From Acidovorax benzenivorans (GTDB taxonomy: Bacteria; Pseudomonadota; Gammaproteobacteria; Burkholderiales; Burkholderiaceae_C), in assembly GCF_028680575.1 (NCBI RefSeq), contig NZ_JAPCKI010000020.1, positions 1 to 64,000 on the forward strand: a DNA stretch of 64,000 nucleotides. The letters run 5' to 3'. Positions within the stretch are counted from its first letter, which is position 1. Every line of letters begins with the position of its first letter. Shown piece by piece: positions 45,722-64,000 of the stretch. Made by a program: the position numbers and the translations under genes. The notes below the pieces were generated by a model. That model had not been told where the DNA came from. It worked only from the letters and a program-made list of their open reading frames with translations, and did no database searches.

Positions 45722-45737
45722 TGGCACGCGCTTTGCA
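45722..45737 (+). promoter_or_regulatory. Sigma-54 promoter of nrtABC
   Basis: TGGCACG (45722-45728), four bases, then TTGCA (45733-45737) match the sigma-54 consensus TGGCACG-N4-TTGCW at every defined base. The predicted RNA start is near 45748, just before the first leader hairpin. Sigma-54 promoters need an enhancer-binding protein, here most likely NtrC; no perfect NtrC box was seen upstream. Confidence 0.85.
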
Positions 45738-45747
45738 TTGCTCAGTG

Positions 45748-45917
45748 CAAGACCAATGCAGGTCTGACCACTGACAGCACTGACCCAACGGCGGGCCGGT
45801 GCTGACAAGGAGCCCCGGACCCGTTCCAGGCTCCACCAAGGACAAAGGCGTCCCCACCCGCACCCGGCTTTGCTTTGCAGCAGCCAGGCGCGGTGTGAGG
45901 ACGCCTTTTTTGTTTTT
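45748..45917 (+). ncRNA. NasT (ANTAR) target leader RNA of nrtABC with terminator
   Basis: Hairpin P1 at 45750-45765 has arms AGACC/GGTCT and hexaloop AATGCA. Hairpin P2 at 45775-45804 has a 12-bp stem with one mismatch and one wobble and hexaloop AACGGC. Both loops fit the ANTAR rule of A at position 1 and G at position 4. A third small hairpin (45840-45853, GGAC/GTCC, loop AAAGGC) overlaps the 5' arm of the terminator. The terminator pairs GGCGTCC (45847-45853) with GGACGCC (45899-45905) followed by TTTTTTGTTTTT. NasT bound to the paired loops should block the terminator and allow nrtA transcription. Confidence 0.82.
45844..45917 (+). terminator. Regulated terminator in the nrtABC leader
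   Basis: AAAGGCGTCC and GGACGCCTTTTTTG are 46 bases apart and end 21 bases before the nrtA ATG. The 5' arm is shared with a small alternative hairpin, making this a switchable attenuator. Confidence 0.85.
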
Positions 45918-45937
45918 CACGCCACCAGGGATGCCCC

Positions 45938-47182
45938 ATGACCGATCTGTTGAAAACCAGCCTCAACCGCCGCACCGTGCTGCAGGCCGCCACCGTGGGC
46001 GCTGCGGGTGTGAGCCCCGCGCTGCGCGCGCTCGTCCACGCAGCGGGCTCCGACGCCCCCGAGAAGAAGGAAGTCAAGATCGGCTTCATCCCGCTGACCG
46101 ACTGCGCCAGCGTGGTCATGGCCTCGGTGCTGGGGTTCGACAAGAAATACGGCGTGACCATCGTCCCCAACAAGGAAGCCAGCTGGGCCGGCGTGCGCGA
46201 CAAGCTCGTGAACGGCGAACTGGACTTTGCCCATGTGCTCTACGGCCTGGTCTATGGCGTGCACCTGGGCACCGCTGGCCCCAAGAAGGACATGGCAGTG
46301 CTGATGAACCTGAACAACAACGGCCAGGCCATCACCCTCTCCAAGGCGCTGGCCGACAAGGGCGCCGTGGATGGCCCGTCCCTGGCCAAACTGATGGCCA
46401 GCGAGAAGCGCGAATACACGTTTGCGGGCACCTTCCCCACCGGCACCCACGCGATGTGGATGCACTACTGGCTGGCAGCGGCAGGCATCAACCCGCTGTC
46501 GGGCGCCAAGCTCATCACCGTGCCGCCGCCACAGATGGTGGCCAACATGCGCGTGGGCAACATGGACGGCTTTTGCGTGGGCGAGCCCTGGAACCACCGC
46601 GCCATCATGGACGGCATCGGCATCACGGCCAACACCACGCAAGACATCTGGAAGGACCACCCCGAAAAGGTGCTGGGCACCACGGCCGAATTCGTCAAGA
46701 AGTACCCCAACACCACCCGCGCCGTGATGATGGCCGTGCTGGAAGCCAGCCAGTGGATCGACGCCAGCCTGTCCAACAAGATGAAGATGGCCGAAACCGT
46801 GGCGGGCAAGGCGTATGTAAACACCGGCGTGGACGCGATCAATCAGCGCATCCTGGGCCGCTACCAGAACGGCCTGGGCAAGACCTGGGACGACCCCAAC
46901 CACATGAAGTTCTTCAACGACGGCGCGGTGAACTTCCCCTACCTGTCGGACGGCATGTGGTTCCTGACCCAGCACAAGCGCTGGGGCCTGCTCAAGAGCC
47001 ATCCCGACTACCTGGCCGTGGCCAAGGAGGTCAACCAGGTGGACCTGTACAAGTCGGTGGCCAGCGCCATGAAGATCAGCGTACCCAAGGACGTGATGCG
47101 CACCAGCAAGTTCATCGACGGTGTGGTGTGGGACGGCAAGGACCCCGCCAAGTACGCCGACGGTTTCAAGATCAAGGCCTGA
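45938..47182 (+). CDS. nrtA: Nitrate ABC transporter substrate-binding protein NrtA
   Basis: 414 residues of the NrtA/NMT1 type. The N-terminus SLNRRTVLQAATVGAAGVSP looks like a Tat-type signal, so it should be exported, unlike cytoplasmic NasS. The core has KIGFIPLTDCASVVMASVLG, TFPTGTHAMWMHYWLAAAGI, VPPPQMVANMRVGNMDGFCV and GEPWNHRAIMDGIG, typical of nitrate-binding NrtA/NasS proteins. It heads nrtABC and is preceded by a sigma-54 promoter and an ANTAR leader. AGGGATGCCCC precedes the ATG. A cyanate-binding relative (CynA) is possible but less likely given the regulation and neighbours. Confidence 0.9.
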   Translation: MTDLLKTSLNRRTVLQAATVGAAGVSPALRALVHAAGSDAPEKKEVKIGFIPLTDCASVVMASVLGFDKKYGVTIVPNKEASWAGVRDKLVNGELDFAHVLYGLVYGVHLGTAGPKKDMAVLMNLNNNGQAITLSKALADKGAVDGPSLAKLMASEKREYTFAGTFPTGTHAMWMHYWLAAAGINPLSGAKLITVPPPQMVANMRVGNMDGFCVGEPWNHRAIMDGIGITANTTQDIWKDHPEKVLGTTAEFVKKYPNTTRAVMMAVLEASQWIDASLSNKMKMAETVAGKAYVNTGVDAINQRILGRYQNGLGKTWDDPNHMKFFNDGAVNFPYLSDGMWFLTQHKRWGLLKSHPDYLAVAKEVNQVDLYKSVASAMKISVPKDVMRTSKFIDGVVWDGKDPAKYADGFKIKA

Positions 47183-47247
47183 CAACGGCCCCACCCCAGC
47201 GCCCACCCGGCCCATCCCCGCAAGCAAGCCCTGCACAGGAGAAAACC

Positions 47248-48210
47248 ATGGTCAGTGCCGTCTTTCACTCCCCATTGGATGCAGCCCCCGTGGCTGCACA
47301 GAATGCTATGACTAATGTAGCTAGCAGCGCTTTACCATCAAGCGCTAGAGGCCAAAAACACTCAAAGCCTGCAACCGCAGGCACTGGGACAGCCACCCCG
47401 GCGGCCCCAGCCCGCGACTGGGCTGCGCTGTCGCGCAGCTTCTGGATGGCGGTGCTGCCGCCGCTGTGTGGCCTGGGCTTGCTGGTGGGCCTGTGGGCGG
47501 TGGTATCCACCACCACGGGCGGCAGCATCCCCAGCCCCAGGGACACCTGGCTGCAGGCGCTGGAAGTGTTCAGCAACCCCTTCTACCGCAACGGCCCCAA
47601 CGACCAGGGCGTGGGCTGGAACGTGCTGATGAGCCTGCAGCGCGTGGCCATCGGCTTCGGCATGGCGGCGCTGGTGGGCATTCCGGCGGGGTTTGTGATC
47701 GGACGCTTCAACTTCCTGTCGCGCATGTTCAATCCGCTCATCAGCCTGCTGCGCCCTGTGTCGCCCCTGGCCTGGCTGCCCATTGGCCTCTTGGTGTTCA
47801 AGGGCGCCAACCCGGCCGCCATCTGGACCATCTTCATCTGCTCCATCTGGCCCATGATCATCAACACCGCCGTAGGCGTGCAACGCGTGCCGCAGGACTA
47901 CATGAACGTGGCCCGCGTGCTGAACCTGAGCGAATGGAAGATCGCCACCAAAATCCTCTTCCCCGCCGTGCTGCCCTACATGCTGACCGGTGTGCGCCTG
48001 GCCGTGGGCACCGCGTGGCTCGTGATCGTGGCCGCCGAGATGCTGACGGGCGGAGTGGGCATTGGCTTCTGGGTGTGGGACGAGTGGAACAACCTCAACG
48101 TCAAGAACATCATCATCGCGATCTTCGTGATCGGCATCGTGGGCCTCGTGCTGGAGTACGCCCTCATCAAGCTGGCCACTGCATTCACGTTCGAAGAGGT
48201 AAAAGCATGA
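47248..48210 (+). CDS. nrtB: Nitrate ABC transporter permease NrtB
   Basis: 320 residues. About 60 residues of low-complexity N-terminal tail precede the permease core, which has FWMAVLPPLCGLGLLVGLWA, PSPRDTWLQALEVFSNPFYR, SLLRPVSPLAWLPIGLLVFK and MLTGGVGIGFWVWDEWNNLN, typical of NrtB. Codons about 19-38 of the tail come from a dispersed palindromic repeat. ACAGGAGAAAACC precedes the ATG. The frame is open far upstream, but that is chance in GC-rich DNA. Its stop overlaps the ATPase start. Confidence 0.92.
   Translation: MVSAVFHSPLDAAPVAAQNAMTNVASSALPSSARGQKHSKPATAGTGTATPAAPARDWAALSRSFWMAVLPPLCGLGLLVGLWAVVSTTTGGSIPSPRDTWLQALEVFSNPFYRNGPNDQGVGWNVLMSLQRVAIGFGMAALVGIPAGFVIGRFNFLSRMFNPLISLLRPVSPLAWLPIGLLVFKGANPAAIWTIFICSIWPMIINTAVGVQRVPQDYMNVARVLNLSEWKIATKILFPAVLPYMLTGVRLAVGTAWLVIVAAEMLTGGVGIGFWVWDEWNNLNVKNIIIAIFVIGIVGLVLEYALIKLATAFTFEEVKA
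47301..47362. repeat. AGCTAT/AGCGCT dispersed repeat inside nrtB, copy 7
   Basis: GAATGCTATGACTAATGTAG, then GCAGCGCTTTACCATCAAGC and GCTAGAGGCC, show both arms. It is in frame and encodes residues NAMTNVASSALPSSARG of the NrtB tail. Confidence 0.75.
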
Positions 48211-49046
48211 ACACGACCACCACTGCAGCATCCGCACACCCCTCCATGAGCACCAAGTTCATCGAGGTCCACGGCGTCGAGCAGACTTTCAAGACCGCCA
48301 AGGGCCTGTTCCCGGCGCTGCGCGACATCAACCTCACGATTGCCAAGGGCGAGTTCGTGGCGCTCATCGGCCACTCGGGCTGCGGCAAGTCCACCTTGCT
48401 CAACCTGATCGCGGGCCTGACCACACCCACCAACGGCGCTCTGCTGTGCGCCAACAAGGAGATCCGGGGCCCGGGCCCCGAGCGGGCCGTGGTGTTCCAG
48501 AACCACTCGCTGCTGCCGTGGCTTACCTGCTTCGACAACATCTACCTGGCGGTGGAGCGCGTGTTTGGCGGCAAGGAGAGCAAGGCCCAGCTCAAAGCAC
48601 GCACCGACGCCGCACTGGCCCTGGTGGGCCTCACGCCCGCAGGCCAGAAGCGCCCCGGCGAGATCTCGGGTGGCATGAAGCAGCGCGTGGGCATTGCCCG
48701 CGCCCTGTCGATGGAACCCCAGGTGCTGCTGATGGACGAGCCCTTTGGCGCACTGGACGCACTCACCCGTGCCAAGCTGCAGGACGAGCTGCTGGAGATC
48801 GTCGCGCGTACCCAAAGCACCGTGGTGATGGTGACGCACGACGTGGACGAAGCCGTGCTACTGTCCGACAAGATCGTGATGATGACCAACGGCCCTGCAG
48901 CCACGATTGGCGAGGTACTGGCCGTGGACCTGCCCCGCCCCCGCAAGCGCGTGGAACTGGCCGAAGACCCGCAGTACGTGCACTACCGCAAGGCGGTGAT
49001 TGACTTCCTCTACACGCGGCAGGGCCACGTCGAAAAAGCCGCTTGA
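48207..49046 (+). CDS. nrtC: Nitrate ABC transporter ATP-binding protein (NrtC/NrtD-like, single-domain)
   Basis: 279 residues. It has Walker A LIGHSGCGKSTLLNLIAGLT, then AVVFQNHSLLPWLTCFDNIY, signature EISGGMKQRVGIARALSMEP and Walker B LLMDEPFGALDALTRAKLQD. Cyanobacterial NrtC carries an extra regulatory substrate-binding domain; this protein ends after the ATPase, so it is NrtD-like in form. ATGA overlaps the nrtB stop. A strong terminator follows at 49082. Confidence 0.92.
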   Translation: MNTTTTAASAHPSMSTKFIEVHGVEQTFKTAKGLFPALRDINLTIAKGEFVALIGHSGCGKSTLLNLIAGLTTPTNGALLCANKEIRGPGPERAVVFQNHSLLPWLTCFDNIYLAVERVFGGKESKAQLKARTDAALALVGLTPAGQKRPGEISGGMKQRVGIARALSMEPQVLLMDEPFGALDALTRAKLQDELLEIVARTQSTVVMVTHDVDEAVLLSDKIVMMTNGPAATIGEVLAVDLPRPRKRVELAEDPQYVHYRKAVIDFLYTRQGHVEKAA

Positions 49047-49081
49047 GCGGCCGGGTCGGCGACGCCCCAGACACCCGAAAC

Positions 49082-49117
49082 AAAAGGGCTCTGACCAGAT
49101 CGGTCAGAGCCCTTTTT
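49082..49117 (+). terminator. Intrinsic terminator after nrtABC
   Basis: An 11-bp stem GGGCTCTGACC/GGTCAGAGCCC, with loop AGATC, is flanked by AAAA and TTTTT, so the stem can extend to 15 bp. It can work in both directions and separates nrtABC from the convergent CBS-domain gene. Confidence 0.92.
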
Positions 49118-49182
49118 ACAGCGTAACGTCAAAGGTAACCGCCGACAGAACGCGCGCTGACTCAAGCCAGTGCCCCCGCGCG

Positions 49183-49284
49183 CAAAGGCCGCCCCGCCGC
49201 GCCGGGGTGGCCCCCCTTTTCGAATGGCGCAGCCGTACGACAGAAGGGGGGGGAAGGCGCGCAGCGCCTCAGGGGGCGGCCCCT
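49183..49284 (-). repeat. CCCCTGAG-type 3'-end repeat, copy 5
   Basis: On the minus strand, GCCGCCCCCTGAGGCGCTGC starts a few bases after the stop of the CBS-domain gene and GCGGGGCGGCCTTTG ends it. The middle is diverged from the other copies. Confidence 0.65.
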
Positions 49285-49289
49285 TACCG

Positions 49290-49727
49290 TTAATGCGTGC
49301 CTGTGATGTAGTTTTCCAACTGCTCAATGATGAATTTTTGCTCGGAGATGATGTCCTTGACCAGGTCACCGATGGAAATCATGCCCACCAGCTTGCCGCC
49401 ATCCACCACGGGCAGGTGACGCAGGCGGTTGTTGCTCATGAGTTGCATGCACTGCTCGCTGGTCTGGTCGGGGCGCACGAACATCACGGCCGAGGTCATC
49501 ACATCCTTGACCTGCGTGACGGCCGAGGTGCGCCCCATGAGGGCAATTTTGCGGGCGTAGTCCCGCTCTGTGAAGATGCCGGCGATGGCCGTGCCCTCGG
49601 TCACGATGAGCGCACCAATGCCCTTGTCAGCCATGAGCTGGAGGGCATCCAGCACAGAAGCTGCGGGGGTGATGGTGTGGACGGTGGCGTCGGGTTTGGA
49701 CTGAAGAATCTTGGCGACTGCGGTCAT
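49290..49727 (-). CDS. CBS-domain pair protein
   Basis: 145 residues made almost wholly of two CBS domains (about 8-65 and 75-130). Visible are VLDALQLMADKGIGALIVTE, GIFTERDYARKIALMGR and RLRHLPVVDGGKLVGMISIG followed by DLVK. Such stand-alone pairs bind adenosine nucleotides and regulate partners that cannot be named here. The ATG at 49727 has AGGGAGGTTTCC upstream, so the longer frame is rejected. Confidence 0.88.
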   Translation of the reverse strand: MTAVAKILQSKPDATVHTITPAASVLDALQLMADKGIGALIVTEGTAIAGIFTERDYARKIALMGRTSAVTQVKDVMTSAVMFVRPDQTSEQCMQLMSNNRLRHLPVVDGGKLVGMISIGDLVKDIISEQKFIIEQLENYITGTH

Positions 49728-50265
49728 GGAAACCTCCCTCGTGAGAACGAAAACGGGCACAGAGAGATTTCAGCCCATAAGCCCCGTGCGCGCAACCCAC
49801 GCAAGCCCCATTTGCGGCGCTTTTTGATCATCTTGTTGCACGGCGAATGCAACGGATGTTTCTGCCCCGTTGCATCCCGCCTTACCCGAAACAAACTGAA
49901 AAGAAGCGAAACCGCAGCGAGACGACGCCACCGGCCCAGCCCGGCACGATGGAGCCCATGTTCAACGCACCGGCCACACATCCATCACCGGCTTCTGCAA
50001 CCCACCGGCGCCCAGCGGTATCCACGGTAACCCGTCGGTATTGCGAAGGCGACCAGGCGACACGGAAGCCTCAGAGGATTGTTTCCAATACTGGAACAGT
50101 TAGTTCGCGACTCAGTGGTTTTTCTCTGAACAGCACCGGCGTACAGTTCATCCCATCGATGAGCCGAACCCGCAAGGCGACTCACCGAACCCGGTGCGAA
50201 GCGAGTCGTTTTTGATCTTCACCCGGTTTTTTTGAGACGCTTTTTTAACTTCAAGGATTTCCATC
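49728..50265. other. 538-base gap with inverted repeats, no convincing gene
   Basis: No open frame here has a credible ribosome site and codon use. ATGCAACGG (49847-49855) and CCGTTGCAT (49867-49875) form a perfect inverted repeat with an 11-base spacer. At 50178-50213 CGACTC and GAGTCG enclose an inner ACCG/CGGT pair and are followed by TTTTT, an intrinsic-terminator shape 52 bases before the first DUF4148 gene. This could be an attenuator or end an unseen small RNA. Confidence 0.5.
50178..50213 (+). terminator. Terminator-like hairpin upstream of the DUF4148 pair
   Basis: CGACTC at 50178-50183 pairs with GAGTCG at 50203-50208, followed by TTTTT. It faces the DUF4148 genes, so it would end a transcript that starts upstream in the gap, or attenuate the genes. 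Confidence 0.5.
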
Positions 50266-50556
50266 ATGAACAACACCGCACGTTTCCTGTCTATCGCCGC
50301 TGTGGCCGCTTTCGCTTCCTTTGGTGCCCAGGCTGATGAAGCCGATGCTTCGCAGTTCGCCACAAAGTTTGAAACCAGCCGCACCCGCGCTGAAGTGGTC
50401 GCCGAAGCCGCCACCGCAGTGCAGATGCGCAGCCAGGAGCCCGCAGGCTCCCGCGTGGTGACCTACAAGTCCACGGTTGACCGCGCCGCTGTGCGTGCCG
50501 AAGCGGCCGCTCAAGCCATGCGCACTGGCCGCGTGGGCCCTGCTGAAGGCGGTTGA
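50266..50556 (+). CDS. DUF4148 domain secreted small protein (first of tandem pair)
   Basis: 96 residues. A signal peptide (RFLSIAAVAAFASFGAQA) precedes a small alanine- and charge-rich domain with FATKFETSRTRAEVVAEAAT and GSRVVTYKSTVDRAAVRAEA, the DUF4148 pattern found in many Burkholderiales. Function is unknown. The DNA of the first 50 codons is almost the same as that of the next gene, so the two arose by recent tandem duplication. It is probably periplasmic. Confidence 0.85.
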   Translation: MNNTARFLSIAAVAAFASFGAQADEADASQFATKFETSRTRAEVVAEAATAVQMRSQEPAGSRVVTYKSTVDRAAVRAEAAAQAMRTGRVGPAEGG

Positions 50557-50640
50557 TTCAACTTTTTGAATCCACGGCTTCACCCTTCGCGTATTCCAGA
50601 TACCTCGTCAATATTTTTTGAATTTCACAGGAGTTTCATC

Positions 50641-50934
50641 ATGAACAAGACTGCCCGTTTCCTCTCTATCGCCGCTGTGGCCGCTTTCGCTTCCTTTGGT
50701 GCCCAGGCTGACGAAGCCGATGCTTCGCAGTTCGCCACCAAGTTTGAAACCAACCGCACCCGCGCTGAAGTGGCTGCTGAAGCCGCTACCGTGGCCCAGA
50801 CCCGCAGCATTGAGCCAGCAGGTTCGCGTGTGGTGACTTACAAGTCCACGGCTGACCGCGCTGCTGTGCGTGCCCAAGCTGCTGAAGCCCTGCGCACTGG
50901 CCAGATTTCGTCCGGCGAAATCGGCTCCATGTAA
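50641..50934 (+). CDS. DUF4148 domain secreted small protein (second of tandem pair)
   Basis: 97 residues. The signal peptide and first half match the preceding gene nearly base for base, including ATCGCCGCTGTGGCCGCTTT. The C-terminus diverges (EALRTGQISSGEIGSM). ACAGGAGTTTCATC precedes the ATG, a better ribosome site than that of the first copy. A strong terminator follows. The pair is probably one transcript. Confidence 0.85.
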   Translation: MNKTARFLSIAAVAAFASFGAQADEADASQFATKFETNRTRAEVAAEAATVAQTRSIEPAGSRVVTYKSTADRAAVRAQAAEALRTGQISSGEIGSM

Positions 50935-50979
50935 TTCGCTCGGCCTGCACCACGGTGCAGGTGGAAGATTGCAAATGCC

Positions 50980-51017
50980 AAAAAGGCCGAGGCCCCTGTG
51001 GGGGCCTCGGCCTTTTT
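50980..51017 (+). terminator. Bidirectional terminator after the DUF4148 pair
   Basis: AAAAAGGCCGAGGCCCC and GGGGCCTCGGCCTTTTT with loop TGTG form a 17-bp perfect stem. It lies between the DUF4148 genes and the convergent gluconate TRAP operon and can serve both. Confidence 0.93.
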
Positions 51018-51086
51018 CATGGCGCTTCGTCAAAAAAAGAAGAGCGCCATCGCAGCGTGAAGGCCGCCAAGGCCCTCCGCCAAGAA

Positions 51087-52106
51087 CTACTTGCCGGCGC
51101 GCGCCTGGGCCACCGCTGCCTGCACTTCCTTCCACAGGCCTTCACCCACGTTGGCCGCGATGCTGGCGTTCACTGCACTGAGCTTTTCGCGCATGCGGTT
51201 GGCTTCGGCAGCGGGCAGTTCGTTGACCTGCATGCCCTTGCCCTTGAGGTCGGCCAGCGCCTTGTCTGCCTCGGCCCGTGTGTCCTGGCGCTCGAAATCG
51301 CGGCTCTTCTTGGCGGCATCAAGCAGCACCTTCTGCTCGGCCTTCGAGAGGCCATCCCAATACTTCTTGCTCACCAGCACGATCCAGGGGCTGTAGACGT
51401 GATTGGTCACGGTGAGGTACTTTTGCACCTCATAGAACTTGCTCGACAAGATGGTGTTGTAGGGGTTCTCCTGGCCATCCACCGTCTTGGTTTCGAGGGC
51501 AGTGAAGAGTTCCGAGAACGGCAGCGGCACCGCGTTGGCGCCCAGGGTCTTGAAGCTGTCGAGGAACACGTTGTTCTGCATCACGCGCAGCTTGATGCCG
51601 TCCATGTCTTCCAGCTTGTTAACCGGGCGTTTGCTGTTGGTGAGGTTGCGAAAGCCGTTCTCCCAATACACCAGGCCCACCAGGCCCTTTTCCTGCAGCT
51701 TGTCCATCACCTTCTGGCCCACGGGGCCGTCCAGCACCACGTCGGCTTCCTTGGCGTTATTGAACAAAAACGGCGTGTCCCAGATCGCCATTTCCTTGGT
51801 GATGCCCACCAGCGTGGCGGTGGAGCCCACCATCATCTCCTGCGCACCGCCGATCAGGGCCTGCTGCATTTGCACGTCCGAGCCCAGCGCGGCAGCGCCA
51901 ATGGCGCGCATCTTCATCTTGCCGCCCGAGGCCTTTTCCACTTCCTGGGCAAACAGCTTGGTAGCACGACCCTGGTTGGAGTCCTCGTTCAGGCCGTAGC
52001 CAAAACGGATGATGCGCGGCTTGAAGTCTTGCGCTGCGGCCTGGAACGAGCAGGCGATGGCAGCGACCGACAGGGCGGCGAGCAAGGTACGGCGGAAAGT
52101 TTTCAT
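51087..52106 (-). CDS. TRAP transporter substrate-binding protein, DctP family (probable gluconate/sugar acid)
   Basis: About 339 residues. Signal peptide FRRTLLAALSVAAIACSFQA ends AAAQD. The DctP fold shows IIRFGYGLNEDSNQGRATKL, DGIKLRVMQNNVFLDSFKTL and a central ALETKTVDGQENPYNTILSS; the Arg in KLRVMQN and the GQENP motif are family marks for carboxylate binding. It is the last gene after gntK-dctQ-dctM, so gluconate or a related sugar acid is the likely ligand. The ATG at 52106 gives the normal signal. Confidence 0.9.
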   Translation of the reverse strand: MKTFRRTLLAALSVAAIACSFQAAAQDFKPRIIRFGYGLNEDSNQGRATKLFAQEVEKASGGKMKMRAIGAAALGSDVQMQQALIGGAQEMMVGSTATLVGITKEMAIWDTPFLFNNAKEADVVLDGPVGQKVMDKLQEKGLVGLVYWENGFRNLTNSKRPVNKLEDMDGIKLRVMQNNVFLDSFKTLGANAVPLPFSELFTALETKTVDGQENPYNTILSSKFYEVQKYLTVTNHVYSPWIVLVSKKYWDGLSKAEQKVLLDAAKKSRDFERQDTRAEADKALADLKGKGMQVNELPAAEANRMREKLSAVNASIAANVGEGLWKEVQAAVAQARAGK

Positions 52107-52152
52107 GGTTGTCTCCATTGGCGAGGGGGAAGGGAAAATGAGTGAAGGCAAG

Positions 52153-53454: not shown

Positions 53455-53457
53455 TGC

Positions 53458-53970
53458 TTACTCCACCTCAGCGCCATGACCGAGGTCCAATGGCTTGCGT
53501 TGAATCAATTCGATGGTCGCCATCACGCCAATGGCCACCGCGCACAAAAAGGCGGGCAGTGGCAGCAGGGCCACTGGGTAGGCCATGACGACCGAGCGGC
53601 TGCCCATGCCCACCACCACCTGCTGCCAGGCGCCCCAGGCCAGCATGGCGCTGGCGGTGATCACCAGCAGGCGGATGACGGCGGTGAGCACGCCAAACGC
53701 TACAGGGCGCTTGGCCAGCAGACCGGCCAGGCTGGTGAAGGCCATGTGCTCGCCTGCGGGGTAGGCCGCTGCGGCGCCGATAAAAACCATCCAGACAAAC
53801 AGCAGGCGAGACAGCTCTTCGCTGGCCGCAACGCCGCTGCCAAAGCCGTAGCGCAGCACCACGTTGATGAACACGGCCACGGCCATCACGCCCAGGCAGC
53901 TGGCCATGAGCACCTGGGATATCCGGGCAAAACGGCTCTGCGGCACGGCATGTTGTGCAGGGGAACTCAT
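53458..53970 (-). CDS. TRAP transporter small permease, DctQ family
   Basis: 170 residues with four membrane segments. It has VFINVVLRYGFGSGVAASEE and LSRLLFVWMVFIGAAAAYPA, the DctQ signature (N-VxLRY, EELSRxLFVWMxFxGAA). The start overlaps the gntK stop (ATGA). It pairs with the DctM protein encoded next. Confidence 0.92.
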   Translation of the reverse strand: MSSPAQHAVPQSRFARISQVLMASCLGVMAVAVFINVVLRYGFGSGVAASEELSRLLFVWMVFIGAAAAYPAGEHMAFTSLAGLLAKRPVAFGVLTAVIRLLVITASAMLAWGAWQQVVVGMGSRSVVMAYPVALLPLPAFLCAVAIGVMATIELIQRKPLDLGHGAEVE

Positions 53971-54507: not shown

Positions 54508-54514
54508 CAATCCA

Positions 54515-54622: not shown

Positions 54623-54656
54623 CCAGATCAACCCCAACCCCCATGAGGGTTAACCC

Positions 54657-55682: not shown

Positions 55683-55683
55683 G

Positions 55684-55767: not shown

Positions 55768-55851
55768 GGCGTCGTGCCAGTTTCCAGCACTGTGCAAAAT
55801 GCAGGGCACCCCAGCCCCATCAGCATCCAAAGATACAAAAGCCGTCCACAC

Positions 55852-55912
55852 TGGGCTTGTCGAAGCGCCGCGCAAGGCTTCGACAGGTCCAGCCAGAACG
55901 GTTCGGAGGGGT
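55852..55912. repeat. TTCGACAGGCTCAG-type intergenic repeat, copy 2
   Basis: GGGCTTGTCGAAGCGCCGCG and AAGGCTTCGACAGGTCCAGC form an inverted repeat between the convergent gntR and chemoreceptor genes. It is a short relative of 27770-27858. Confidence 0.68.
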
Positions 55913-55928
55913 CGAAAGCGAATCCGAC

Positions 55929-57590: not shown

Positions 57591-57964
57591 CGGAAACTCC
57601 TAGAAAAAGTCTTACTTCTGCACTGCTGCGGGCTCCACCTGAAGCCATCTTATAGAAGCAGCTGTGACAAAAGCAAACATTTATTGCGCAACTGCACAAG
57701 CCCCTTTGGTCAATAGAATTGCGAATAAATGATATTTATGAACAATTATAAATCATTAATATCATTTATGCAATATTTGCTCAAACATTTTTATCGGTAA
57801 GAGCGATGCCATCCTCCGCGATGCCTCTCGGTCGCGCCATGCACCAATAAAAGGCGCTACAGAAAAAGGCACCACCGTCGCGCAGATTTGGGCGCGCACA
57901 CGCAAGACATTCAGGGCTAGAAGAACCAAGGCGGGCAAGAGGCACCAAGCTGGTGCAATCCATC
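57591..57964. other. A+T-rich gap upstream of the chemoreceptor and nitrate transporter leader
   Basis: No gene is supported here. ATAAATGATATT (57725-57736) and AATATCATTTAT (57758-57769) form a 12-base perfect inverted repeat in a very A+T-rich stretch, which may hold the chemoreceptor promoter and a regulator site. Near the right end lies an NtrC-like box listed separately. Confidence 0.5.
57942..57956. promoter_or_regulatory. NtrC-like enhancer box upstream of the nitrate transporter
   Basis: GCACCA, AGC, TGGTGC make a perfect palindrome of the NtrC type (consensus GCACCA-N3-TGGTGC) and the next base is A. Its centre is about 42 bases before the predicted start, closer than usual for a sigma-54 enhancer. 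Confidence 0.6.
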
Positions 57965-57980
57965 TGGCACAAGCATTGCA
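57965..57980 (+). promoter_or_regulatory. Sigma-54 promoter of the nitrate transporter gene
   Basis: TGGCACA (57965-57971), four bases, TTGCA (57976-57980) fit the sigma-54 consensus with one change. The predicted RNA start is near 57991, at the foot of the first leader hairpin. Confidence 0.82.
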
Positions 57981-57990
57981 AGCCGTTCCA

Positions 57991-58116
57991 CTGCGGCCCT
58001 TGCAGGGGCTGCGCATGCCCTGTGCAACGGCGCACACAAGGGCGGCAAGGACGAAGGCGTCCCCACCTGCTGCTTCGGCATACCGACGCAGCCCGGTAGG
58101 GCGCCTTTTTTGTTTT
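57991..58116 (+). ncRNA. NasT (ANTAR) target leader RNA of the nitrate transporter gene
   Basis: P1 at 57993-58012 has arms GCGGCCC/GGGCTGC (one wobble) with hexaloop TTGCAG, which does not follow the A1/G4 rule. P2 at 58021-58036 has perfect arms TGTGC/GCACA and hexaloop AACGGC, identical to the nrtABC leader. GGACG-AAGG-CGTCC (58049-58062) is an alternative hairpin that takes the terminator 5' arm. The terminator pairs AAGGCGTCC (58054-58062) with GGGCGCCTT followed by TTTTG. Confidence 0.78.
58054..58116 (+). terminator. Regulated terminator in the nitrate transporter leader
   Basis: AAGGCGTCC pairs with GGGCGCCTT (one wobble), followed by TTTTGTTTT. It ends 17 bases before the ATG at 58133. 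Confidence 0.82.
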
Positions 58117-58132
58117 GTGGCCGACGAGGGTC

Positions 58133-59380
58133 ATGAACACCGCTACCTTTTTTGTGCGACATCCCATGCTTCCATTTCGGCAGTTCCTCCAATCCGGCCA
58201 CGCACCCACGCTGTGGGCGTCGTTTCTGTACTTCGGCTTTTCGTGCGCGGTGTGGGTCATCAACGGCGCGATGGCGCCGTTCATCCGCGAGAGCTTTCAA
58301 CTCTCGCCCACCCAGATGGGCATGATGCTGTCCATCCCCATTTTTGCGGGGGCGCTGCTGCGGTTTCCGCTGGGCATCCTGGCGCAGTACATCGGGCGCA
58401 AGCGCGCCACGCTGGTCGAGATGGCGGGCATCTTTTTGGCCATGGGCTATGGCTACCTGTTCGTGCACACCTTCAACGACTTGCTCGCGCTGGGCATCCT
58501 GCTGGGCGTGGCGGGGGCGAGCTTTGGTGTGGCGCTGTCGCTGGGCTCTGGCTCGTTTCCACCGCGCTACAAGGGCCTGGCCATGGGCATCGTCGGCGCG
58601 GGCAATGTGGGCACCGCCGTGGCCGCGCTGCTGGCGCCAACACTGGCCCAGAAGTTTGGCTGGCAGGCGGTGTATGGCTTCGCCGCTGTGAGCGTGGCCG
58701 TGCCCGCCGTGGTGATGGCGGTGTACGCCAAGGAGCCACCCGACCTCGCGCCCCACGCCACGTTCCGCGAGCACATCGCCTGCCTGTTTGAAAAAGACGG
58801 CTGGGCCTTCAGCCTGATCTACGCCGTGACCTTTGGGGGCTTCATCGGCCTGACGGCCTTCTTGCCCAGCTACTTCTACGACCAGTTTGGCGTGAGCAAG
58901 GTGCAGGCGGGGCAACTGACCATGCTGGCGGCCTTTTTGGGTGCAGCGCTGCGGGTGATGGGCGGCTGGCTGTCGGACCACTGGGGTGGCGTCAACACGC
59001 TCACGGGCGTGCTGGCTGTGACGGCCGTGAGCATGGTGCTGTGTGGCCTGGCCGAAAACTCCTTGCCGGTGACGATGCTGTTGTTTCTGGTGTGTTTTGC
59101 CGCCTTGGGAGCAGGCAACGGCGCGCTGTTCCAACTGGTGCCACTGCGCTGGCCGCTGTCTACTGCGGTGGCTGGCTCGATGATTGGCGAGATCGGCGCA
59201 CTGGGCGGTGGCCTCATCCCCAACGGCATGGGTTTTTCTCGCCAATACACCGGCACCTACCTCTGGGGCTTCGTGGGCATCGCGGTGTGCGCCGCAGCCA
59301 TGCTGGTGTTGTTGCGCGTAATGCAGATCCGCTGGACCCGCACCTGGGCGGAGAAGGGTGGTCGGGCACGCAGTGCCTGA
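58133..59380 (+). CDS. Nitrate/nitrite transporter, MFS family (NarK/NasA type)
   Basis: About 415 residues with twelve membrane segments. NINGAMAPF-like FSCAVWVINGAMAPFIRESF at the start, FRFPLGIL-type GALLRFPLGILAQYIGRKRA, the nitrate signature SLGSGSFPPRYKGLAMGIVG with AGNVGTAVAALLAP, and CFAALGAGNGALFQLVPLRW as second signature are typical of NarK/NasA. It imports nitrate in exchange for nitrite or with protons. The ATG at 58133 is chosen; the frame is open to a TTG at 58115 that lies in the terminator. The sigma-54 promoter and ANTAR leader point to assimilatory use. Confidence 0.92.
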   Translation: MNTATFFVRHPMLPFRQFLQSGHAPTLWASFLYFGFSCAVWVINGAMAPFIRESFQLSPTQMGMMLSIPIFAGALLRFPLGILAQYIGRKRATLVEMAGIFLAMGYGYLFVHTFNDLLALGILLGVAGASFGVALSLGSGSFPPRYKGLAMGIVGAGNVGTAVAALLAPTLAQKFGWQAVYGFAAVSVAVPAVVMAVYAKEPPDLAPHATFREHIACLFEKDGWAFSLIYAVTFGGFIGLTAFLPSYFYDQFGVSKVQAGQLTMLAAFLGAALRVMGGWLSDHWGGVNTLTGVLAVTAVSMVLCGLAENSLPVTMLLFLVCFAALGAGNGALFQLVPLRWPLSTAVAGSMIGEIGALGGGLIPNGMGFSRQYTGTYLWGFVGIAVCAAAMLVLLRVMQIRWTRTWAEKGGRARSA

Positions 59381-59409
59381 GCTGGCGATAGCCAGCCAAT
59401 GCGCTGCGC

Positions 59410-59481
59410 GCCTTGATTTCAAGCAAAACCACCATCAAGCGCCCTACCCATATGCATAGACAGCTATCTTTTAAATAGCAA
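59410..59481. repeat. AGCTAT/AGCGC dispersed palindromic repeat, copy 8
   Basis: CCACCATCAAGCGCCCTACC and AGACAGCTATCTTTTAAATA followed by GC match the family. It fills the gap between the convergent transporter and kinase-phosphatase genes. Confidence 0.7.
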
Positions 59482-59492
59482 ACGCATTCGCC

Positions 59493-61250
59493 TCACCGAG
59501 GCAGAAACAGCAGCCAGTACACCAGCAGCAGGTTCACCAGCACGCTCACTGCCAGCGCGATCTTCCACAACGCCGTGGCATCGCGTTGCATCAGCGGCTG
59601 TGGGCCGGGAGCTGACAGGGGGCGTGAAGCCCCCCGCTCCAGCGCCAGCAGCAGTTCTTCAGCGGTTTCAAAACGCTGCGTGCGCTGGCGAGCCACGGCC
59701 TTCAATGCAATCTGGTCGAGCCAGATGGGCACGCTGGGGTTGTGGCGGCTGGGGGCTACCGGGTCGCGGTGGTAACGACCCAACTGGTACTGAATCACGT
59801 CGCCATAAGGCAGGCGGCCATGGCTCAACAGCTGGTACAGCGTGACGCCCAGGGCAAACAGATCGCTGCGCGCATCGGGCAGTTGGCCCTCCGAGTCACC
59901 GTTCTTTTCATAGCCCGGCCACTGCTCGGGGTTCATATAGCTGGGGGTGCCTGCGTGCAGGCGGCGCGTGGCCTCGGGCTCGCGGCCTGACAGCGCCACG
60001 CCCAGGTCCAGCACCCGCAGCACGCCGTCATCGCCCAGGTGCAGGTTGTCGGGTTTGATGTCGCGGTGCACCACCCCTTGCCGGTGCAGCCAGCCCAGCA
60101 CCTGCGCCGCCTGCATCACCACCGACACGGCCTGCGGCACGCCCAGGTGCTGGCGGCCGCGCAAGCGCTGGCCCAGGGTCTGGCCCGCATGCCAGTCATA
60201 CAACAGATAAAACGCGCTGGCACCCGGGCTTGCGCCGCCCTGCTCCGGGGGCCAGATGCTCAGGCGCGCCAGGTGCACGGCCGCGTGGCCCGACTGCATG
60301 CGCCGGGCCACCCAGGCCTCGTGCGCCAATGTGGCGCGCTCTTGTGCGTCGTGCGCGCGGGCGGGCACCAGCGTCTTGAGGGCATACAGCCGCTGCGTGG
60401 CCGGGTCGCGCACCTGGTAGATGCGGTGCACACCGCTGTCGGCCACCAGCGCGGTCACCACCAGGCCATCCACCGGCTCGCCCACCTTGAGCAGCGGCAA
60501 CACCGGCAAGTGCTGCGCCCGGCGGGACTCGTCCTGCAAGGTGCCTTCCAGCGCCCCTTGCACCCGCACCACCAGCGCGGTCACGTTGTCGGTGCTGCCC
60601 CTGCGCAGCGCAGCCCTCGTGATCTCCTCGCTCAGAGTCTGGGCACTCGCGCCAACCTGTAGAAGCTGGCGCAGCTCGCGTTCGGGCAGGCTGCCGTGCA
60701 CGCCGTCGGACAGCAGCACCAGCAGGTCGCCGCTGTGCAGTTCGCCCTGGCTGTAGTCCACCACCACATGGTCGTCCAGGCCCATGGCGCGGGTGAGCTG
60801 GTGCGCAAAGTCGCGCTGCGCCATAACGTGGTCGGTCGTCAGCAGCTGCAGTCGGCCGCTGCGCAGCAAATAGGCGCGGGTGTCGCCCACATGGGCCAGC
60901 GTGTACGACTGGCCGCGCAACACGACGGCAGTGAGCGTGGTCAGGCCCACGGCGGGCTGGCGGCGCCGGTTCATCGACGCGAGCCAGCCGTTGTGGGCAC
61001 TCAGAATGCGGTCCAGCGCCACGGTGGTGTCCCAGGTGTCGGGCGTGGCGAAGTAGTCGTTCACCAGCGTGTTCACCGTGGTCTGTGCGGCTTCGCGGCC
61101 GTTGCCACCGGTGCTCACGCCATCGGCAATGGCTGCGATGGCGCCGCGTTCGCGGTCGCGCCCCTGCCCCAGCACCAGGGCGGCAAAGTCTTCATTGACT
61201 TCGTTGCGCCCGGCCTGCGAGGTGTGGCCGATGTCCAGTTCAAAGCTCAT
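59493..61250 (-). CDS. Fused PP2C-type phosphatase and Ser/Thr protein kinase, membrane-anchored
   Basis: About 585 residues. The N-terminal PP2C domain (about 1-235) has GRNEVNEDFAALVLG, AIAAIADGVSTGGNGREAAQ, LAHVGDTRAYLLRSG, LVLLSDGVHGSLPE and GSTDNVTALVVRV with the metal-binding Asp residues. The kinase domain (about 270-550) has ALKTLVP with the Lys, GVVHRDIKPDNLHLGDDG with the catalytic Asp near residue 394, and LDLGVALSG in place of DFG. A final membrane helix (VSVLVNLLLVYWLLFLP) anchors it. In Pseudomonas a kinase gene also lies between nasA and nirB, which suggests a link to nitrate assimilation. The ATG at 61250 has GGAG upstream. Confidence 0.9.
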   Translation of the reverse strand: MSFELDIGHTSQAGRNEVNEDFAALVLGQGRDRERGAIAAIADGVSTGGNGREAAQTTVNTLVNDYFATPDTWDTTVALDRILSAHNGWLASMNRRRQPAVGLTTLTAVVLRGQSYTLAHVGDTRAYLLRSGRLQLLTTDHVMAQRDFAHQLTRAMGLDDHVVVDYSQGELHSGDLLVLLSDGVHGSLPERELRQLLQVGASAQTLSEEITRAALRRGSTDNVTALVVRVQGALEGTLQDESRRAQHLPVLPLLKVGEPVDGLVVTALVADSGVHRIYQVRDPATQRLYALKTLVPARAHDAQERATLAHEAWVARRMQSGHAAVHLARLSIWPPEQGGASPGASAFYLLYDWHAGQTLGQRLRGRQHLGVPQAVSVVMQAAQVLGWLHRQGVVHRDIKPDNLHLGDDGVLRVLDLGVALSGREPEATRRLHAGTPSYMNPEQWPGYEKNGDSEGQLPDARSDLFALGVTLYQLLSHGRLPYGDVIQYQLGRYHRDPVAPSRHNPSVPIWLDQIALKAVARQRTQRFETAEELLLALERGASRPLSAPGPQPLMQRDATALWKIALAVSVLVNLLLVYWLLFLPR

Positions 61251-61391
61251 GCACCAGCTCCATGCAGGTTCCATGCCCAAGGTGGTGCACGCACGCACCG
61301 CCCCGCACGGTCCCGACCCCGGTCACCCCACCCAGCCACGCGCCATGCCGTGCGGACAGTGCAAGGTCACCCCACATCAGTGCACAAACTC

Positions 61392-61407
61392 TGGCACGGG
61401 CATTGCT
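61392..61407 (+). promoter_or_regulatory. Sigma-54 promoter of nirB
   Basis: TGGCACG (61392-61398), four bases, TTGCT (61403-61407) match the consensus TGGCACG-N4-TTGCW. The predicted start is near 61418. Upstream, CAGTGCA occurs twice (61357-61363, 61378-61384), 21 bases apart or two helical turns, a possible activator site. Confidence 0.85.
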
Positions 61408-61417
61408 TAACCAAAAC

Positions 61418-61548
61418 AACGGCCCAGCAGGGCCACGCAATTCAGCGGTGCAACGGCGCACCAAGGGGTTGTATGGACGAAGGCGTCCCCACATGCGGTT
61501 TCGATGGAATGTCGGAGCTGCATCGTGTGGACGCCTTTTTTGTTTTTT
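61418..61548 (+). ncRNA. NasT (ANTAR) target leader RNA of nirB
   Basis: P1 at 61421-61434 has arms GGCCC/GGGCC around AGCA, or a four-pair stem with hexaloop CAGCAG; neither fits A1/G4. P2 at 61447-61462 has arms GGTGC/GCACC and hexaloop AACGGC, the same as in the two other leaders. GGACG-AAGG-CGTCC (61475-61488) overlaps the terminator 5' arm. The terminator pairs GGCGTCC (61482-61488) with GGACGCC (61529-61535) and ends TTTTTTGTTTTTT. Confidence 0.78.
61480..61548 (+). terminator. Regulated terminator in the nirB leader
   Basis: AAGGCGTCC and GGACGCCTTTTTTG end 35 bases before the nirB ATG. Sequence and layout copy the nrtABC leader terminator. Confidence 0.85.
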
Positions 61549-61582
61549 GCATCGCTCAGGCGATGGAACCGACGGAGTCACG

Positions 61583-64000
61583 ATGAAAAAGCTCAAACTG
61601 GTGATGGTGGGGAACGGCATGGCCGGTGTGCGCACGCTGGAAGAGCTGCTCAAGATTGCCCCCGATCTGTATGACATCACGGTCTTCGGGGCCGAGCCGC
61701 ACCCCAACTACAACCGCATTCTGCTGTCGCCCGTGCTGGCTGGCGAGCAGACCATCGACGAAATCATCCTCAACGACTGGTCGTGGTACGCAGACAACCA
61801 CATCACGCTGCACACCGGCTTCACGGTCAATGATGTGGACCGCGTGCGCCGCGTGGTGAGCGCCACCAGCAAAGACGGCGATGTGATCACCGCCGAGTAC
61901 GACCGCCTCATCATCGCCACGGGCTCCAACCCCTTCATCTTGCCCATCCCCGGCAAAGATCTGCAAGGCGTGCTGGCCTACCGCGACATTGCCGACACCC
62001 AGGCCATGATCGACGCAGCCGCCACGTACAAGCACGCGGTGGTCATCGGCGGCGGCCTGCTGGGCCTGGAGGCCGCCAATGGCCTGATGAAGCGCGGCAT
62101 GCAAGTGAGCGTGGTGCATGTGGGCGACTGGCTGATGGAGCGCCAACTGGACGATGTGGCCGGCAAGATGCTGCAAAAGTCGCTGCAAGAGCGCGGCATG
62201 CAGTTCTTGATGAAAGCGCAAACCCAAGAGCTGGTGGGCAACGCCGAGGGCCGCGTGGCCAGCGTCAAGTTCAAAGACGGCACCGAAGTGCCCGCCGACC
62301 TGGTGGTGATGGCTGTGGGCATCCGCCCCAACACCGCCTTGGCCGAAAAAATGCGCCTGCACGTGAACCGGGGCATTGTGGTGAGCGACACGCTGCAAAC
62401 CACCACCGACGCGCGCATCTACGCCGTGGGTGAATGCGCTGCGCATCGGGGCATCGCCTATGGCCTGGTGGCTCCGTTGTTTGAGCAAGGCAAGGTGCTG
62501 GCCAACCATTTGGCCGAGTTCGGCATTGGCCGCTACCAGGGCTCGCTCACGTCCACCAAGCTCAAGGTCACGGGCATCGACCTTTTTTCAGCGGGCGACT
62601 TCCAGGGCGGCGACAACACCGAAGAAATCGTGATGAGCGACCCCTTTGGCGGCGTGTACAAGAAGCTGGTCATCAAGGACGACAAGCTGGTGGGCGCCTG
62701 CCTGTATGGCGACACCGTGGACGGCAGCTGGTACTTCAAGCTACTGCGCGACGGCCGCAGCGTGACCGACATCCGCGACAAGCTGATGTTTGGCGAGAGC
62801 AACATCGGCGACGTGGGCCACCAGGGCCACAACAAGGCCGCCGCCATGGCTGACACCGACGAAGTCTGCGGCTGCAACGGCGTGACCAAGGGCGCCATCT
62901 GCAAGGCCATCAAGGACAAGGGCCTGTTCACGCTGGATGAAGTGCGTAAGCACACCAAGGCCAGCGCATCGTGCGGCTCGTGCACGGGCCTGGTCGAGCA
63001 GATCATCATGTTCACGGCGGGCGGTGACTACAGCGCCACGCCCAAGACCAAGGCCATGTGCGGCTGCACCGACCACGGCCACCAGGCCGTGCGCGAAGCC
63101 ATTCGCACCCACAAGCTGCTGTCCATTGCCGATGTCTTCCAATTCATGGAATGGAAGACGCCCAACGGCTGCGCCAGCTGCCGCCCCGCCGTCAACTACT
63201 ACCTGATCAGCACCTGGCCCAAGGACGCCAAGGACGACCCGCAAAGCCGCGCCATCAACGAGCGCAGCCACGCCAACATCCAAAAGGATGGCACCTACAG
63301 CGTTATCCCCCGCATGTGGGGCGGCGAGACCACGGCCGACGAGCTGCGCCGCATTGCCGATGCGGCCGACAAGTACAACATCCCCACCATCAAGGTCACG
63401 GGCGGCCAGCGTATCGATTTGCTGGGCGTGAAGAAGGAAGACCTGGTCAATGTGTGGAAGGACATCGGCATGCCCAGCGGCCATGCCTACGCCAAGGCGC
63501 TGCGCACCGTCAAAACTTGCGTGGGCAGCGAGTGGTGCCGCATGGGCACCCAAGACAGCACCCAGATGGGCAAGGACCTGGAGCGCGCAATGTGGCGCAT
63601 GTACGCCCCGCACAAGGTCAAATTTGCCGTGAGCGGCTGCCCGCGCAATTGCGCCGAAGCAGGCATCAAGGACGTGGGCATCATCGGCGTGGACAGCGGC
63701 TGGGAGATGTACGTGGCTGGCAACGGCGGCATCAAGACCGAGGTGGCGCACTTCTTCACCAAGCTCAAGACCGCCGAAGAGGTGCTGGAGTACACCGGCG
63801 CGTTCTGCGAGCTGTACCGCCAGGAAGGCTGGTACCTGGAGCGCACTGTGCACTACGTGAGCCGCGTAGGCCTGGACTATGTGAAGAAGCGCATTCTGGA
63901 AGACGAAGCCGGTCGCAAGGCGCTGTGGGAGCAACTGCAGTTTGCGCTGGATGGCGAGCCCGATCCCTGGTTCGATTTCGACAAGGCCGCCGTGGACACG
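61583..64000 (+). CDS. nirB: Assimilatory nitrite reductase [NAD(P)H] large subunit NirB (3' end outside window)
   Basis: 806 codons are present and the frame is open to the window end; full NirB is usually about 815-850 residues, so little is missing. It reduces nitrite to ammonia with NAD(P)H. The N-terminal flavin/NAD domain has KLVMVGNGMAGVRTLEELLK and AVVIGGGLLGLEAANGLMKR. Two BFD-like cysteine sets follow: Cys429, 431, 464, 467 and Cys493, 495, 530, 533. The siroheme and 4Fe-4S site has Cys646-x5-Cys652 and Cys686-x3-Cys690. CGGAG precedes the ATG. The small subunit nirD is expected just outside. It is controlled by the sigma-54 promoter and ANTAR leader. Confidence 0.95.
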   Translation, partial: MKKLKLVMVGNGMAGVRTLEELLKIAPDLYDITVFGAEPHPNYNRILLSPVLAGEQTIDEIILNDWSWYADNHITLHTGFTVNDVDRVRRVVSATSKDGDVITAEYDRLIIATGSNPFILPIPGKDLQGVLAYRDIADTQAMIDAAATYKHAVVIGGGLLGLEAANGLMKRGMQVSVVHVGDWLMERQLDDVAGKMLQKSLQERGMQFLMKAQTQELVGNAEGRVASVKFKDGTEVPADLVVMAVGIRPNTALAEKMRLHVNRGIVVSDTLQTTTDARIYAVGECAAHRGIAYGLVAPLFEQGKVLANHLAEFGIGRYQGSLTSTKLKVTGIDLFSAGDFQGGDNTEEIVMSDPFGGVYKKLVIKDDKLVGACLYGDTVDGSWYFKLLRDGRSVTDIRDKLMFGESNIGDVGHQGHNKAAAMADTDEVCGCNGVTKGAICKAIKDKGLFTLDEVRKHTKASASCGSCTGLVEQIIMFTAGGDYSATPKTKAMCGCTDHGHQAVREAIRTHKLLSIADVFQFMEWKTPNGCASCRPAVNYYLISTWPKDAKDDPQSRAINERSHANIQKDGTYSVIPRMWGGETTADELRRIADAADKYNIPTIKVTGGQRIDLLGVKKEDLVNVWKDIGMPSGHAYAKALRTVKTCVGSEWCRMGTQDSTQMGKDLERAMWRMYAPHKVKFAVSGCPRNCAEAGIKDVGIIGVDSGWEMYVAGNGGIKTEVAHFFTKLKTAEEVLEYTGAFCELYRQEGWYLERTVHYVSRVGLDYVKKRILEDEAGRKALWEQLQFALDGEPDPWFDFDKAAVDT

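Follow-up and report, generated by a model that had tools for sequence, protein, structure and literature searches.

We describe a proposed nitrate-assimilation regulon in the 64,000-nucleotide window formed by bases 1-64000 of contig 12 of the Acidovorax benzenivorans genome (5.49 Mb in 43 contigs). Very probably, its three transcription units, headed by nrtA, narK and nirB, are controlled by two gates in series: a sigma-54-dependent start, and then a terminator-bearing 5' leader that is opened by the ANTAR protein NasT. At the first gate, sigma-54 RNA polymerase, most likely driven by NtrC under nitrogen limitation, would start at three TGGCAC-N5-TTGC sites. At the second, the leader would by default fold into a strong intrinsic terminator; NasT would bind the hexaloops of two hairpins in the nascent RNA, H2 (loop AACGGC) and H3, plus that of H1 in the nrt leader, and with H3 held by NasT the terminator would be blocked and transcription would run on into nrtABC, narK and nirB-nirD-nasA-cobA. 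The promoter-type sites, the hairpins, the overlap of H3 with the terminator, the conservation of these elements and the presence of NasT are read directly from the sequence. This is an RNA switch of a known kind, well conserved and often equipped with an added hexaloop; its unusual part is that the known nitrate sensor was not found.

Hairpins and Terminators of the Three Leaders

The same order of elements, a sigma-54-type site, hairpins and a terminator, begins at 45722, 57965 and 61392 on the forward strand (the strand of all leader elements given here), in each case where a first-pass annotation of this DNA had placed it. The intrinsic terminators span 45844..45911 (nrt), 58054..58111 (narK) and 61480..61541 (nirB), as judged from the folds and, for the latter two, from pairing counts as well. 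They carry AAGGCGTCC and the T run that had been described, and their predicted stability lies far outside that of dinucleotide shuffles (z -6.97, -5.54 and -6.24, with 0/200 shuffles as good in each).

What the first-pass annotation overlooked is H3, a hexaloop hairpin that overlaps the terminator. Alignment and folding place it at 45840..45853 in the nrt leader (GGAC-AAAGGC-GTCC), at 58049..58062 in the narK leader and at 61475..61488 in the nirB leader (both GGAC-GAAGGC-GTCC), with the consensus GGAC-RNNGGC-GTCC, and we propose it as the antiterminator hexaloop. In all three leaders, the loop and 3' arm of H3 serve as the 5' arm of the terminator, so the two structures are mutually exclusive. 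When the nrt leader is folded short of the terminator 3' arm, the best structure holds H1, H2 and H3 together, and a further hairpin forms in this leader between H2 and H3.

The second conserved hairpin, H2, is a long hairpin at 45775..45804 in the nrt leader and lies at 58017..58043 in the narK leader and at 61447..61462 in the nirB leader (GGTGC-AACGGC-GCACC); it was assigned by folding and, for nrt and nirB, by alignment. Its AACGGC loop is common to the three leaders, as had been claimed, and is closed by a C-G pair in each. The upstream hairpin regions fold only 1.9 to 2.1 standard deviations below shuffles (z -1.86, -1.92 and -2.12), with 7, 10 and 4 of 200 shuffles as good.

Conservation of the Leaders

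We sampled 82 loci around nasT (30), narK (22) and nirB (30), of which 74 are from the same genus and 8 from other genera. Extraction by a promoter and terminator pattern yielded 57 leaders (26 nrt, 12 narK, 19 nirB), all same-genus, with three narK leaders with degenerate H1 retained. The 25 loci left out comprise 24 without a match, the 8 other-genus loci among them, and one (L052) that was dropped for its differing terminator arm; a later covariance search recovered narK or nirB leaders in some of the genomes that the pattern had missed (e.g., G006, G007, G017 and G021). H3 is present in 57/57 leaders, with G at loop position 4 in all of them and A (28) or G (29) at position 1; we note that the terminator pattern dictates the 3' arm of H3 in this set, so only its 5' arm gives independent evidence.

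In the nrt alignment, H1 and H3 are nearly invariant, and three H2 pairs are changed on both sides (as many pairs in 218/500 shuffles, as many cells in 2/500). The narK/nirB alignment of 33 rows, two nrt leaders included, keeps H2 and H3 paired in 95.1% of cells; eight cells are changed on both sides (0/500 shuffles as many), on four pairs (28/500), and the terminator pairing is kept as well. Column 55 is U in 8 of the 33 rows and pairs in both the H3 and the terminator form, with A (7) or G (1) as its partner in the terminator and G (6) or A (2) in H3.

For a wider sample, species genomes were scanned with a NasT alignment; of at least 582 loci, we kept the best 80, which are mostly from Burkholderiales. 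Here, H3 was sought as a C-closed hexaloop with A or G at loop position 1, G at position 4, at least three pairs and terminator overlap. Such a hairpin lies upstream of 55/78 NrtA-family genes in these 80 loci, compared with 10/1560 dinucleotide shuffles. The Cupriavidus necator locus (L173), of the nasT-nrtABC type, also carries an H3 leader. Loop position 1 is A in 49 and G in 6 of the 55 (the search being limited to these two bases), and the stem takes the paired forms GGAC/GTCC, AGAC/GTCT, GAAC/GTTC and CTTC/GAAG. The second pair is AU in 46 leaders, GC in 3 and UA, GU or CG in 2 each; the third is GC in 47, AU in 5, UA in 2 and GU in 1; and the fourth is GC in 35, AU in 11, CG in 2 and UA in 2, with 5/55 unpaired. 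Spacing is regular in most leaders, with exceptions: H2 stands ∼21-31 bases and H1 ∼47-62 bases before H3. Extra upstream hexaloops with stems of at least four pairs number none in 3 of the 55 leaders, one in 31, two in 19 and three in 2, so a third hexaloop is frequent and not universal.

Sigma-54-Type Promoters and NtrC-like Sites

The -24/-12 elements lie at 45722..45736 (TGGCACGCGCTTTGC, nrt), 57965..57979 (TGGCACAAGCATTGC, narK) and 61392..61406 (TGGCACGGGCATTGC, nirB), and a GG-N10-GC element is thereby present at a fitting distance before all three leaders. A single site of this kind carries little weight because the 5.49 Mb genome has 36 occurrences of the strict pattern TGGCAC-N5-TTGC and 15 of a reversed control pattern. 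By arithmetic, however, the genome-wide density is ∼0.0004 sites per 125 bases, and a strict site (by a slightly looser pattern, without shuffle control) is carried by 49 of the 55 H3-type leaders of other loci; given this low density, the promoters before all three leaders and those 49 are not due to chance.

NtrC-like sites were scored against the NtrC consensus GCACY-N5-RGTGC. One precedes the nrt promoter at 45581..45595 (GCACAAAGGCGGTGC, + strand, one mismatch, at -141), and another directly precedes the narK promoter at 57942..57956 (GCACCAAGCTGGTGC, + strand, no mismatches, -23 from the promoter element). Across the genus, at no more than one mismatch, such sites are found upstream of 22/26 nrt leaders (67/1300 block shuffles), 10/12 narK leaders (20/600) and 9/18 nirB leaders (63/900), one nirB leader having too little upstream DNA. 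An Acidovorax citrulli mutant with ntrC deleted can no longer grow when nitrate is the only source of nitrogen (PMC10052978), and nasT-type genes of beta and gamma groups are reported to have predicted sigma-54 promoters (PMC12316311). In the window, a sigma-54-like site lies just before nasT at 44763..44777 (+ strand, TGGCGTAAAAATTGC), and a similar site stands 22-28 nt ahead of the nasT match in 24 of the 30 same-genus loci; because of this short distance, the nasT mRNA may be almost leaderless.

NasT and the Extent of the Regulon

The nasT gene (44780..45418, + strand, start codon at 44780 or 44792) encodes a pseudo-receiver and an ANTAR domain, as identified by domain and profile matches, and its product is the sole ANTAR protein found in this genome. 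Its nearest named relatives are from Acidovorax (L105, 97%; A. kalamii, 96%). The receiver match falls below the Pfam cut-off, and an insertion of ∼14 residues follows the first strand of this domain. The closest solved relatives are 1s8n, 6wsh, NasR (4akk) and AmiR (1qo0), the first two being Rv1626 and EutV. In a hand-counted alignment with the EutV chain, NasT Y181, M189, R159 and K160 correspond to EutV Y164, M172, R142 and K143, and EutV K147 is replaced with R. Four of the five checked RNA-contact positions, which are among the residues named for EutV (PMC8934654), are therefore identical. The leaders are probably opened by NasT.

A covariance search in related genomes was one of the checks that the first-pass annotation had proposed. 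Our model of H2 plus terminator, built on 33 leaders including the genome's own narK and nirB, recovers three sense leaders in this genome, nirB (E 1.6e-22), narK (2.6e-16) and nrt (5.7e-7), together with one match to the opposite strand of the nirB terminator (E 0.01). Sense leaders other than these three were not found in this genome at E ≤ 0.1, with stricter filters that lose some weak matches. Because the model finds only these three, the NasT-leader regulon appears, at that sensitivity, to have three members, all of them in the window. Elsewhere, all 36 genus genomes searched contain matches, as do 5/24 other genomes, three of these weakly (E 0.009 to 0.04). The operons had been called unlinked; instead, the three leaders are neighbors on one strand within 16 kb.

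From these elements we infer the start sites, the part played by NtrC, the binding of NasT, read-through and the extent of the operons, and several observations weigh against the scheme. In the predicted narK fold, G1 and C6 of the H3 loop pair with each other and reduce it to four bases, and when the nirB leader is folded to mid-terminator, the minimum-energy structure is without H3. Loop position 1 of H3 is A in nrt and G in narK and nirB, and A1 of the hexaloop mattered in tests of EutV (PMC3369931). Among nrt leaders the stem of H3 does not vary, and in the rest of the genus it hardly does, so support from compensatory changes is drawn mainly from other genera, in which the search itself required pairing. 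There, 23/78 upstream regions of NrtA-family genes are without H3, among them those of lone copies, gamma NasS-type genes and some nrtABC. An NtrC-like site is absent upstream of the window's own nirB at up to one mismatch, and in A. citrulli without ntrC, nasT goes up, not down (PMC10052978). Lastly, Rfam has no family that matches the window at gathering thresholds.

Source of the Nitrate Signal

The first-pass annotation proposed a regulon that answers to both nitrogen limitation and a nitrate or nitrite signal. The sigma-54-type promoters, the ANTAR-type leaders, NasT as the sole ANTAR protein and the three members support that proposal in part; for the nitrate signal, NasS was not found. 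NasS, a cytosolic relative of NrtA, is the known nitrate sensor of NasT (PMC3795266). It lacks a signal peptide, and its gene is usually a neighbor of nasT. A NasS-like match was found in none of the 47 genus genomes searched, the present one included (E ≤ 1e-10); 42 of the 47 have a completeness of 90% or more and a contamination of 5% or less, and the matches are NrtA, NrtA fragments, a second NrtA (34-37% identity) or weak and remote. Such searches should detect a NasS because the remote NasS of locus L099 matches NrtA at E 8.6e-38. In the present genome, two proteins are strong matches of the NrtA type; each is encoded in an nrtABC-type cluster and has a twin-arginine N-terminus (by eye). 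Another nine proteins match the broad NMT1_2 family weakly (E 1.7e-11 or worse). The second nrtABC-type cluster (L004:7536-8942) has an NrtA with a long N-terminal extension (NMT1_2) and follows a gene pair resembling a sensor kinase and regulator (by eye).

NrtA is the best candidate for the sensor. In the window, nrtA (45938..47182, + strand) encodes a nitrate-binding protein by domain match, with a twin-arginine N-terminus by eye. It is possible, if doubtful, that in Burkholderiales NrtA itself senses nitrate for NasT, and that the Massilia/Pseudoduganella copy split off as a second, independently evolved NasS. Twin-arginine proteins fold in the cytoplasm before export; unexported NrtA would bind NasT and release it once nitrate enters, and there would be a feedback loop, with nrtA itself behind the NasT-controlled terminator. 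In Massilia and Pseudoduganella, a copy of NrtA would have lost its signal and transporter, moved ahead of the leader beside nasT and become a second NasS. If this is true, a transport protein reports its own substrate to an RNA switch, and the export route explains how a periplasmic protein could do so. Separately, "nasS" annotations beside nasT in these bacteria may denote nrtA.

In Massilia, Pseudoduganella and Janthinobacterium, nasT adjoins a lone NrtA-like gene, with NrtB and NrtC not seen in the locus DNA and a signal peptide not seen in the reading frames (the start in L148 is ambiguous). The encoded proteins keep the nitrate-binding positions of NrtA. A quick tree places 12 of the 13 lone rows, with one nrtABC-type NrtA, on one branch within betaproteobacterial NrtA, away from low-identity NasS; the 13 rows need at least two changes on this tree, in which long branches are flagged and the thirteenth row, L156, is doubtful. 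A hexaloop leader follows the lone gene in 8/10 loci (L146, L148, L150, L151, L154, L157-L160 and L168), with none in L150 and L168; in L159 and L160 a CobA-like gene also precedes this leader. Paracoccus has the same arrangement, in which nasT is followed by the sensor gene, the leader and the structural genes (PMC5424462). The lone copy looks like a re-evolved NasS. Against this, the leader of L170 stands ahead of the lone-type gene, and nrtABC in three lone-copy genomes has a sigma-54 site with an H3 leader not seen. For these two reasons, we also rejected a simple link in which every NasT leader needs NrtA.

A search of 30 genomes (the present one and 29 named) bears on the sensor question from another side. 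Nine genomes of the nrtABC type hold a single NrtA-family match (G062, G064, G067-G069 and G079-G082). Two genomes, those of L163 and L164, hold none and keep nasT, which likewise counts against the idea of a second NasS; in these two, sigma-54 sites stand before nirB and narK, but the terminator/hexaloop leader is not seen there. When their locus DNA was scanned, L163 gave nothing and L164 a single match, on the minus strand, that no gene of the set follows. The insertion in the receiver domain was considered as a replacement for NasS and rejected, as it does not track sensor type: among the 80 loci, almost every NasT from Comamonadaceae and Oxalobacteraceae has it, several lone-NrtA loci included; it is shortened in the lone-NrtA loci L146, L154, L158, L159 and L160; and Cupriavidus, with NrtA as the sole family match, has a short insertion or none. 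In the one-contig same-genus genome G032 (G032:C1:1271302-1272541), nrtA is broken by stops and nasT is kept, which provides a natural test of the NrtA-sensor idea.

The lack of a NasS-like match in the 47 genus genomes also suits a simpler view, in which NasT is always free, the second gate is blind to nitrate and only sigma-54/NtrC control counts; a Paracoccus nasS mutant indeed expresses the pathway without nitrate (PMC3795266). We regard this as unlikely. Leaders conserved over many genera are hard to explain under constant bypass, and in the two genomes that gave no NrtA-family match, a scan of the regions ahead of nirB and narK showed no leader, which points to a needed partner.

Quite unlikely, too, is that another local protein senses nitrate or switches NasT. 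Two candidates are a fused PP2C phosphatase/protein kinase (59493-61298, minus strand), which sits between narK and nirB, and a GRQRMLSQRM-repeat protein after nirB. A gene whose N-terminal part resembles this phosphatase (by eye) stands between nasT and narK in L163 and L164, which have no NrtA-family match, and the GRQRMLSQRM motif resembles the P-boxes of nitrate sensors. To the best of our knowledge, however, neither the kinase nor a GRQRMLSQRM protein is known to contact NasT, and in L163 and L164 the leader is not seen ahead of nirB and narK. By eye, GRQRMLSQRM-type proteins are encoded in L005 at ∼600-1364, between nirB and nirD, and at 6652-7584, after cobA.

Choice of the Hairpin Pair

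The first-pass annotation had drawn a hairpin at the RNA start of every unit and paired it with the AACGGC hairpin as the ANTAR target. For nrt the start hairpin stands: H1 at 45751..45764 (GACC-AATGCA-GGTC; fold and leader alignment) is an ANTAR-type hexaloop with A1 and G4. In the window's nirB leader, this position (61421..61434, by fold) holds a tetraloop hairpin, GGCCC-AGCA-GGGCC, and the narK leader is without an A1/G4 hexaloop there. The named pair is therefore not the functional pair in these two leaders; the conserved pair is the AACGGC hairpin and H3.

It could still be that NasT binds only H1 and H2, acting on RNA polymerase or otherwise, and that H3 is a terminator arm that merely looks like a target. 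The loop counts, with H1 classes scored by eye, speak partly for this: A1 and G4 are kept in H2 in 57/57 same-genus leaders and in H1 in 24/26 nrt and 8/12 narK leaders, and H3 has G1 in just over half of all leaders. The same two bases are found in H1 in only 2/19 nirB leaders, however, and the other 17 keep H3 without them; moreover, H3 and a terminator are found together in other genera much more often than in shuffles, and its 5' arm covaries with its 3' arm. We consider this alternative very unlikely and dropped H1 and H2 as the ANTAR pair, given the tetraloop at H1 in nirB leaders and the overlap of H3 with the terminator. That these are just terminators ending the upstream genes, plus chance hairpins, has a negligible probability. 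Intergenic terminators are common, but these sit between a promoter-like site and the gene it would serve, the covariance model recovers them ahead of no operon other than these three, and their full arrangement is seen again in other genera.

In nirB leaders without the first hexaloop (e.g., 61418-61445), a CAACGR-like motif precedes the tetraloop-type hairpin and a CGCARTTC-like motif follows it, both largely conserved with exceptions. The latter can pair with GRGTTG, which lengthens H2.

Relation to Known Systems

One of the closest parallels to these leaders is dual-hexaloop antitermination by EutV in the Enterococcus faecalis eut genes (PMC3369931, PMC8934654). Shared are two hairpins with six-base loops, a constant G4, a C-G closing pair and a second hairpin that overlaps the terminator, and the RNA-contact residues are kept in NasT. 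In contrast, the present leaders serve Gram-negative nitrate genes behind sigma-54-type promoters, the nrt leader has a third hexaloop and an extra hairpin between H2 and H3, and loop position 1 of H3 is G, not A, in narK and nirB. The dual hexaloop was itself defined with Burkholderia matches (PMC3369931), and the tables of that paper may already list such leaders.

The NasS-NasT systems of Paracoccus, Azotobacter, Pseudomonas and Bradyrhizobium (PMC3795266, PMC5424462, PMC6759348) share a NasT-type ANTAR protein, a leader of hairpin and terminator, nitrogen-limitation control on top and several target units, the last of these described as a NasT regulon (PMC6759348). They differ from the present case, in which NasS is not found in the genome, nasT adjoins nrtABC and the receiver domain carries an insertion. 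NasR and the Klebsiella nasF leader (PMC7496416) likewise concern nitrate genes and a two-hairpin ANTAR target with terminal C:G, A1 and G4, but NasR senses nitrate via its own NIT domain, whereas a domain search shows none in NasT. Judged by title and abstract, we found no literature on NasT without NasS, on NrtA as a NasT partner or on three-hairpin NasT leaders. The case illustrates how an established ANTAR switch serves nitrate genes across a large bacterial order, in most instances behind sigma-54-type promoters. It also reveals a gap in that NasT is retained where the textbook sensor NasS is not found.

Genes of the Three Units and Their Surroundings

Family-model matches bear out the downstream units named in the first-pass annotation, nrtABC, a NarK-type transporter and nirB. 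Following nrtA on the + strand are nrtB, a permease (47248..48210, TIGR01183 above cut-off), and nrtC, an ATPase (48207..49046, TIGR01184 above cut-off). The second unit encodes a NarK-family nitrate/nitrite MFS transporter (58133..59380, + strand), with TIGR00886 as the best match, below its cut-off, and an MFS_1 match. The third begins with nirB (61583..64000, + strand, NirB model above cut-off), which continues past the window end; downstream of it, outside the window, are nirD (by eye), a nasA-type reductase (NasA-type models below cut-off) and cobA (above cut-off).

A second NirB, of 37-38% identity, is present in 12 same-genus genomes (G001, G005, G006, G008-G011, G013-G016 and G021). 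In each, the C-terminal part of a longer frame (438-571 residues, NasR-like by eye) gives an ANTAR match no more than ∼2 kb away. A tandem pair of small proteins, much alike and with signal-like N-termini, is encoded at 50266-50556 and 50641-50934, an apparent duplication by eye.

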